The notes beneath the pieces were generated by a model. It saw nothing but the letters and a program-made list of their open reading frames with translations. It had not been told where the DNA came from and ran no database searches. This document shows, piece after piece, positions 52,699 through 54,086 of a stretch of 64,000 nt of DNA; positions within the stretch are counted from its first letter, which is position 1; each line of letters starts with the position of its first letter. Position numbers and translations under genes: made by a program. Where the stretch lies: NCBI RefSeq assembly GCF_027474405.1, contig NZ_CP114871.1:1-64000 (forward strand), read 5' to 3'. The stretch comes from Caulobacter sp. NIBR2454 (GTDB lineage Bacteria; Pseudomonadota; Alphaproteobacteria; Caulobacterales; Caulobacteraceae).

Positions 52699-54020
52699 GG
52701 GACTCTATCTTCGCCCTGGCCACCGCGCCTGGTCGCGCGGCGGTGGCGGTGGTGCGCCTGTCCGGCGCCCACGTGGGAGAGGCGCTGCGCGTCTTGGCCG
52801 GTCCCCTTCCCGCGCCGCGCATGGCGAGCTTGCGGCGGATCAAGGCCGCCGACGGCGAAACCATCGATCAGGCGCTGGTCCTGTGGTTCGAGGGGCCGGC
52901 CAGCTATACGGGCGAGGATAGTGCAGAGCTGCATCTGCACGGCGGCCGGGCCGTGGTTGAGCGGGTGCTGCAGCGACTTGCGCAGCTGGGCCTTCGTTTG
53001 GCCGAGCCAGGCGAGTTCACGCGACGCGCCTTCGAAAACGGCAAGCTCGACCTGGCGCAGGCCGAGGCGGTAGCCGATCTGGTGGATGCGGAAACCGAGA
53101 CCCAGGCCAAGCAGGCGCTCGATCAGCTGGGTGGCGCTTTGAGCCGTCGGTACGAACTTTGGCGCGAGACGCTTCTCGAGGCGTTGGCCCTACTCGAAGC
53201 CGCCGTCGATTTCCCCGATGAGGACCTTCCAGAAGACGTCGCCGCCCGCGCCCATCCGGCGCTGAAGACGTTGCTCGTGGAACTTGACGAAGCGCTGGCC
53301 GACGCCGAGCGCGGCCGCCGGGTGCGTGACGGCTATCGCATCGCCCTGATCGGGGCGCCGAACGCTGGCAAGAGCAGCCTGCTCAATGCGCTGGTTCAGC
53401 GAGACGCGGCCATCGTCACCGCCACCCCCGGCACCACGCGGGATGTTATTGAAACGCCCCTGGTCTTAGGTGGCTACAAGGTTCTTCTGGCGGACACCGC
53501 TGGCGTCCGCGAAACCACGGACGAGATCGAGGGCGAGGGTGTGCGTCGGGCCCGGCAATGGGCGGCGGAAGCGGACCTGCGACTTTGGGTGGTCGATGGG
53601 TCGTCAAACGACAGCGCTTGGCGGGAAGCCCAGGATCTGGTGACGGCGTCGGACATCCTGATCGTGAACAAGAGCGATCAACCCTCGGCGGATATCTCCA
53701 TCGACTTCGGCGGGCAGCGCATCGGTTGTTCCACGTGGAACACCGAGGACATGGCCATGCTTTCACGCACGCTGGAGATGCGCGTCATCGCTGACCTCAG
53801 TGGCGCCGATTTTCCCGCCGCCACGCGGATGCGCCACGTGGAAAGTCTGACGGAAGCCAGGGCCTGTCTGCAACGCGCTGTAACGACCGATCCCGAGCTT
53901 GTCGAGGTCGCCGCCGAGGAGGTCCGGTTGGCCGCGCGCCACCTGTCGCGGATCACTGGTCGCATCGATCCGGAAACCGTGCTTGGCAAGGTGTTCAGCA
54001 GCTTTTGCATCGGTAAATAG
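52695..54020 (+). CDS. mnmE: tRNA uridine-5-carboxymethylaminomethyl modification GTPase MnmE
   Basis: MnmE with MnmG modifies wobble uridine 34. The 441 residues have the formyl-THF-binding N-terminus ([20 protein letters not shown]) and the GTPase G1 GAPNAGKS (220-227). G3 is DTAGV, G4 is NKSD, and the C-terminal catalytic motif is CIGK. The ATG overlaps the DUF6489 stop. A perfect parS site (53727-53742) is embedded in codons 345-350. Confidence 0.96.
53727..53742. other. parS site 1 (inside mnmE)
   Basis: TGTTCCACGTGGAACA, a perfect 16-bp palindrome matching the ParB-binding consensus TGTTNCACGTGNAACA. It encodes residues C345-S-T-W-N-T of MnmE. Confidence 0.9.
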
Positions 54021-54036
54021 TGTTCCACGTGGAACA
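54021..54036. other. parS site 2
   Basis: TGTTCCACGTGGAACA, identical to site 1, beginning on the base after the mnmE stop codon. It is in the mnmE-mnmG gap, 3.5 kb from parB. Confidence 0.92.
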
Positions 54037-54045
54037 CCGGCGGGC

Positions 54046-54054
54046 TTATCCACA
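54046..54054 (+). promoter_or_regulatory. Consensus DnaA box between parS sites
   Basis: TTATCCACA, a perfect match to the DnaA-box consensus, 9 bp after parS site 2 and 16 bp before site 3. It is the best DnaA box I find in the window, better than those in oriC. Confidence 0.75.
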
Positions 54055-54070
54055 GGGCTGTCCCCACTTC

Positions 54071-54086
54071 TGTTCCACGTGGAACA
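54071..54086. other. parS site 3
   Basis: TGTTCCACGTGGAACA, third identical parS palindrome, 50 bp from site 2. It is 83 bp before the mnmG ATG. Confidence 0.92.

Follow-up and report, generated by a model that had tools for sequence, protein, structure and literature searches.

A conserved two-part element with a DnaA box beside parS upstream of mnmG in a Caulobacter lineage

Why does a perfect DnaA box lie between two parS sites, and what might DnaA do there? The question is raised by the gap between mnmE and mnmG in the window, that is, the whole 64,000-nucleotide stretch of Caulobacter sp. NIBR2454 DNA that was analysed. Mera, Kalogeraki and Shapiro (2014) reportedly described a DnaA-binding site at the parS centromere of C. 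crescentus. An earlier note on this DNA had mentioned reports of DnaA action at the Caulobacter centromere, and reviews covering C. crescentus agree with it (PMC4468827, PMC6399470): DnaA binding at parS has been reported, low DnaA moves the unreplicated centromere and DnaA-ATP is needed (PMC6399470), and the movement depends on a DnaA site within parS (PMC4468827). It has been proposed that DnaA acts at the parS boxes before Cori (PMC6399470); DnaA has been listed as a candidate organiser of ParA, since it also binds parS (PMC6667618); and proteins bound to DNA are described as roadblocks that can hinder the spreading of ParB (PMC8367383). An action of DnaA at parS is already known in kind, and the element in the window is very likely a variant of it. 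In the parts of the literature covered, we found no mechanism for DnaA-started segregation in Caulobacter.

The window contains three identical copies of the 16-bp parS sequence TGTTCCACGTGGAACA, none assigned to a strand: parS1 (54021–54036) lies immediately 3′ of the mnmE stop codon, parS2 (54071–54086) lies farther into the gap, and the third copy (53727–53742) is within the mnmE coding sequence. A scan with TGTTTCACGTGAAACA, allowing up to three mismatches, returned exactly these three sites in the 64-kb window (shuffles averaged 0.02), and in the whole genome (3.83 Mb, three contigs) all perfect parS (n = 3) belong to this cluster, with one further match, a two-mismatch parS-like site at 1963438. 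As in other chromosomal clusters of the 16-bp palindrome TGTTYCACGTGRAACA, the sites are near parAB and the origin, the latter judged by the putative Cori, and they are located 2.6–3.8 kb away from the starts of parA and parB. The genes are all on the plus strand: mnmE (52695–54020, with the start codon of our choice; Pfam TrmE_N, MMR_HSR1 and MnmE_helical), mnmG (gidA; 54169–56037; GIDA), rsmG (gidB; 56012–56677; GidB), parA (56661–57476; AAA_31 and CbiA) and parB (57510–58418; ParB_N, HTH_ParB and ParB_C). By the coordinates of the reading frames, rsmG overlaps mnmG and parA overlaps rsmG, and the gap between parA and parB is 18 or 33 bp, depending on whether parB starts at 57495 or 57510. 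Because these genes overlap or abut, a single mnmG-rsmG-parA-parB operon, with mnmG as its first gene, is likely. The ParB protein has the N-terminal, HTH and dimerisation domains of Pfam, and the parS cluster is a putative centromere to which it would bind.

Box A, the perfect DnaA box TTATCCACA on the plus strand (54046–54054; core TCCACAG at 54049–54055), lies 9 bp past parS1 and 16 bp ahead of parS2, and all three sites are contained in the 148 bp that separate the mnmE stop codon (54018–54020) from the mnmG start (54169). Our scan reproduced the coordinates in the earlier note, which had described three identical parS sites with a DnaA box at these two distances, and its description of box A as the best DnaA box in the window was also borne out, this being the sole exact TTATCCACA in 64 kb. 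The abundance of boxes is not unusual: at up to one mismatch the window has five, compared with 2.5 expected (11 shuffles reach five), which is no excess, and exact TTATCCACA occurs 14 times in the genome on both strands, compared with 10 for a reversed control, a near-background number. The chance of a perfect box within the 34-bp gap between parS1 and parS2 is about 1e-4, a figure obtained by arithmetic from the genome density for an interval chosen post hoc.

What is decisive against chance is conservation. The window's genus comprises 75 genomes, and 70 upstream stretches were read (G024, G043 and G057 have no real mnmG, and fragments of G016 and G038 were left out). TCCACAG was present between parS1 and parS2, or at the same place beside a decayed parS1, in 48 of the 70 stretches, and a 49th carrier, G016, was identified by exact pattern only. 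The proposed refutation of the earlier note, a box that is not conserved in close relatives, was put to the test and contradicted: TCCACAG was found beside parS in 49 of the 75 genomes. We then placed the element on a DNA tree of the mnmE and mnmG coding parts from 67 loci (quick method, unrooted), which omits L106 and L125, in whose sequence no mnmE was found, and also L148, which has the box but too little sequence. The 47 loci with the box fall on one side of one branch and the 20 without it on the other (SH-aLRT 91, below the 95 that earns a star). One change suffices to explain presence of the box, compared with 17.5 for shuffled labels, and no loss was seen among the 47 loci of the box clade. 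Given the near absence of the element in other genera, the simplest reading of the tree would be one gain within the genus.

Within the 47 aligned loci, including the window, the core TCCACAG shows zero changes in seven columns on the tree, whereas 26 columns set as spacer have 2–14 changes each (mean 7.3), and the means per column are 2.4 for parS1 and 0.8 for parS2. A chance match was rejected on this invariance. Although parS2 has 0–2 mismatches in 47/47 loci, parS1 is gapped or has at least three mismatches in five (L126, L129, L135, L158 and L161), and the box core is intact in all five; we deduce from this that the box is selected in its own right. Hitch-hiking on parS conservation was rejected likewise, because the box is kept with a decayed parS1 and the letters separating it from parS are free to vary; the lengths on either side of the box are nonetheless close to constant. 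Because other parts of the gap are also invariant (the parS2 core, TATA with a TCG further upstream, and stretches of the leader), conservation alone singles out no centromere role. The nine-base box varies around its core: it is TTATCCACA in 11 loci, TTGTCCACA in 17, and CCGTCCACA or CGGTCCACA in nine, with three mismatches to the consensus, all outside the core. In C. vibrioides DSM 9893 (L006), parS-TTGTCCACA-parS occurs at the same place, and because TTGTCCACA is the only box with up to one mismatch in the approximately 700 bp scanned upstream of mnmG, this conserved box is very likely to be the published DnaA site.

How far does the element extend? Among the best 80 of 566 named-record loci around mnmG, 75 have parS within 700 bp upstream of mnmG (two of the five without it hold no DNA upstream of mnmG), and only two, L006 with TTGTCCACA and L007, an uncultured Caulobacterales with TTATCCACA, have a pair of parS sites that enclose a DnaA box with at most one mismatch. 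Exact-pattern scans of 390 family genomes, which weaker boxes outside the genus could escape, found 17 and 12 matching genomes among the 315 of other genera, of which 8/17 and 12/12 were inspected. By these exact patterns, only G335 has the box in this gap (L219), as GGATCCACA beside parS within a repeat-like hairpin; it was rejected as the same element, since it lies 10 bp from parS, is spaced differently and lacks a second box. A stricter pattern, applied to 385 genomes sampled from the class, matched two, the window's own genome and the distant G768. Generality in Caulobacterales or Alphaproteobacteria was rejected on the named-record, family and class scans, which covered exact patterns or near-consensus boxes, and conservation of the box across Caulobacterales, which the earlier note had raised for checking, did not hold.

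Several other matches deserve description. Three matches in genus g6 (G140, G174 and G248; loci L212, L213 and L214, near position 1500) have TCCACAG close to a parS downstream of mnmG, by eye in parA, and were rejected. The match in G334 (L175) was rejected for its position after rho, which is not this locus. Thirteen g6 genomes share the sequence CACGTGAAATCC...CACCCGACTATCCACAG (L174 at 1865–1911, L177, L223 and L224), away from mnmG; these four matches were inspected, and the other nine are identical in that sequence, which is a possible DnaA site upstream of a gene that by eye resembles a cold-shock gene. In the distant alphaproteobacterium G768 (L173, approximately 1490–1540), an isolated parS is followed by TTTTCCACA immediately ahead of mnmG, which may represent an independent case.

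The conserved element has a second part. Box B, the sequence TCCCCA on the plus strand of the window (54061–54066), starts 12 bp after the start of the box A core. At this offset the 47 loci have TCACAG (32), CCACAG (11) or TCCCCA (the four loci of the window clade, i.e., the window and L103–L105), and the box B core shows one change over five columns on the tree of aligned loci. In 43 of the 47 loci the two parts form a direct repeat of YCACAG with a spacing of approximately 11 bp. TCCCCA is the W-box consensus of the Caulobacter Cori (PMC4285127), and W-boxes are described as very weak and reliant on cooperation with G-boxes (PMC4468827); this 6-mer near a stronger DnaA box was found in 4/4 window-clade loci. 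Box B may be a weak, cooperative partner site for DnaA. The arrangement resembles the G- and W-boxes of Cori in pairing a stronger box with a weak TCCCCA nearby (Taylor 2011; PMC4285127, PMC4468827); it differs in that, in the consulted parts of these sources, the stronger box is TGATCCACA, compared with TTATCCACA here, and in that the pair in the window is at the centromere rather than the origin. In the C. vibrioides-like group (L127, L131, L133–L135, L137–L139 and others), the box pair lies, by eye, within an imperfect inverted repeat, CCCC...CCACAGC...GCTGTGG...GGGG, which is absent from other groups.

Further traits mark the window clade. The parS within mnmE is identical at 16/16 positions in its four genomes, with flanks only 55–66% identical. 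The peptide encoded by this site is absent at that position from five other members of the genus that were compared. The 12 parS sites near mnmG in this clade follow the TTCCACGTGGAA form, 11 of them exactly and one as a TGTACC variant, and parS2 starts with GTTTCACGTG in the other 43 loci.

How does box A compare with the origin? We take 46342–46771 (no strand assigned), upstream of hemE (approximately 46811; Pfam URO-D) and approximately 7.3 kb from the parS cluster, to be the probable Cori, on the basis of Caulobacter synteny. It contains no perfect DnaA box, the nearest listed fits being CTATCCACA at 46580 and TGATCCACC at 46506, and in this genome the parS box is closer to the DnaA consensus than any Cori box. 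Among 30 Cori regions sampled from the 73 genus genomes with hemE, no perfect DnaA box was found in the 560 bp upstream of hemE (0/30). The sequence TGATCCACA was present in Cori in 14 of 20 regions from box-bearing genomes, in none of the four from the window clade, and in four of the six genomes examined with a weak box A (CCGTCCACA or CGGTCCACA). That the parS box is always stronger than the Cori box was rejected as a rule for the genus, because box A is weak in 9/47 loci.

Boxes A and B are very likely the local form of the DnaA site at the Caulobacter centromere, and we propose that they constitute a DnaA switch there, a proposal with about an even chance of being correct. In such a switch, rising DnaA-ATP before S phase would fill box A; the bound DnaA would help a second DnaA onto the weak box B, one turn away and next to the ParB-bound parS2; and the pair would act on the ParB-parS complex. 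Segregation of the centromere would thereby become committed shortly before, or roughly together with, the firing of replication from the weaker boxes of Cori. We infer DnaA binding in the window, cooperativity between A and B, action at parS ahead of Cori, and an effect exerted on ParB directly instead of by way of transcription. It is possible that DnaA serves as a roadblock to sliding ParB, and DnaA binding and ParB spreading might compete or cooperate, as the earlier note expected. By analogy, the element would putatively be needed for DnaA-triggered movement of the centromere in this organism.

Could the element instead serve transcription? The gap contains a probable mnmG promoter on the plus strand, with a probable −10 sequence TATATT at 54120–54125, of which the TATA columns are invariant in 47/47 loci, and a probable −35 sequence CTCGAC at 54096–54101, suggested by the conserved columns at approximately 98–107 of the gap alignment and by its spacing to TATA; transcription would start near 54132. 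The distance from parS1 to the box core is 11–13 bp in 46 of the 47 loci and 21 bp in one; from the core end to parS2 it is 23 bp in 41, 24 bp in two and 15 bp in the four window-clade loci; and from parS2 to TATA it is 35–36 bp in 43 and 33 bp in four. From the box core to TATA, the −10 sequence, there are 74–76 bp in 43/47 loci and 64 bp in the four of the window clade, and the stretch from TATA to the mnmG start is variable (38 to 67). The box stands at a conserved distance from the promoter, one mark of a DnaA-regulated promoter, the promoter here being a predicted one. In the window clade the box has shifted by 8–9 bp relative to parS2 and, measured against the likely promoter, by roughly one turn of the helix, a shift that would favour a face-of-helix relation to the promoter and represents one event only. 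With the predicted start, box A is centred at approximately −82 in the window and −93 in the other loci.

A further motif, the methylation site GANTC, lies 26 or 31 bp ahead of TATA in 42/47 loci, compared with 6.3 in shuffles. The loci that lack it are precisely L114 and the four of the window clade (54087–54125 in the window, and L103–L105). Because GANTC is also present in 14 of the 20 box-less loci, in which the stretch was placed by its distance to mnmG, it is not specific to loci with the box. Within the mnmG leader we noted a GCCCA...TGGGC hairpin (54134–54148), the arms of which look conserved in the alignment. An RNA feature was rejected as a reading of this region, because the leader hairpin folds no better than shuffles (z −0.84) and 46200–59000 has no Rfam match.

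Promoter spacing and conservation independent of parS1 therefore make a transcriptional role, which the earlier note had not considered, a serious rival: DnaA, with ParB on parS2, would control the promoter of mnmG-rsmG-parA-parB, and segregation would respond partly through the supply of ParA and ParB. We regard this as possible, on the unlikely side. The near-fixed promoter distance suits it at least as well as it suits a centromere role, and the turn-wise spacing was kept although the distance from core to parS2 changed by 8–9 bp; however, the helical-turn argument comes from one clade, and the distance from parS2 to −10 is equally well kept. The frequent GANTC before TATA and the overlapping or abutting of the four genes also fit, although GANTC is shared with box-less loci and the start site and the operon are themselves predicted. 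In C. crescentus, DnaA motifs were reported in 77 promoter regions, near cell-cycle promoters at which they are common, but mnmG, parA, parB and their neighbours (gidA, gidB, mnmE, trmE and rsmG) are not mentioned in the main text of that paper (PMC4287350). Of the promoters it describes, those of podJ and mipZ resemble the present one in having a DnaA motif at approximately −50 to −85, and podJ P2 in having a nearby GANTC, as do most relatives here; unlike them, the boxes in the window are interleaved with parS, and regulation by DnaA would be putative (PMC4287350). We offer only tentatively the idea of a single promoter switch, evolved once in the genus, that comprises both boxes, ParB bound at parS2 and, in the majority of relatives, the CcrM site. 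If this is true, the centromere would be a regulatory region that couples the DnaA level, ParB occupancy and passage of the replication fork to the supply of ParA and ParB.

Might a protein other than DnaA read the element? OmpR-type response regulators bind direct repeats approximately 11 bp apart. Such a regulator might use TCCACAG-N5-YCACAG, the DnaA match being incidental, and both the YCACAG repeat in 43/47 loci and the nine loci that depart from the DnaA 9-mer at three positions beyond the core fit this explanation. We consider it improbable: the core TCCACA is that of DnaA, 28/47 loci have TTATCCACA or TTGTCCACA, the second element of the window clade equals the W-box consensus, and DnaA binding at parS has been published for C. 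crescentus (PMC6399470, PMC4468827). It is very unlikely that the pair merely titrates DnaA from Cori; the consensus box is only about 7.3 kb from the probable origin, but one or two boxes among the genome's 14 perfect ones would absorb little DnaA, and titration would not call for near-fixed distances to parS2 and the promoter. Chance, or the remnant of an ancient origin beside mnmG, is scarcely credible as an explanation of the box, for although the E. coli origin is flanked by mioC and gidA (mnmG) (PMC4446571), the seven core columns are unchanged across 47 loci, and the near absence of the box at mnmG outside the genus is unexpected for a remnant, which was rejected on this distribution.

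The element is real, consists of two parts, occurs on a single branch of the genus in the loci compared, and has been kept independently of parS1. By its near-fixed distances to parS2 and to the likely promoter, it may act at the centromere, through transcription of parAB, or in both ways. Like the parS centromere site of C. crescentus, it is a putative DnaA site among parS near Cori; unlike that site, the window has a perfect 9-mer followed by TCCCCA, a distance to parS2 that is shorter by 8 bp, a promoter that lacks GANTC, and an additional parS within mnmE. The rctA/parS2 locus of Vibrio cholerae chromosome II also unites initiator and ParB sites, but the initiator there, RctB, is unrelated to DnaA, and the locus is reported to titrate it (PMC6399470, PMC4468827, as far as their consulted parts extend). 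In the titles and abstracts of the literature searched, which lay mostly outside subscription journals, we found no account of the conservation, apparent single origin, second element or promoter geometry of the element, nor of the variant in the window's lineage, with its perfect box and W-box, shorter spacing and lost methylation site.

The near-fixed promoter spacing raises the question of whether the published effect on segregation is local or transcriptional, and natural variants are available in which parS1 is lost, box A is weak, GANTC is lost or the box is absent. The conserved second element could confer sensitivity to DnaA-ATP on the switch. In this branch of the genus, the element probably links replication initiation to the separation of the chromosome or to the genes that serve it.
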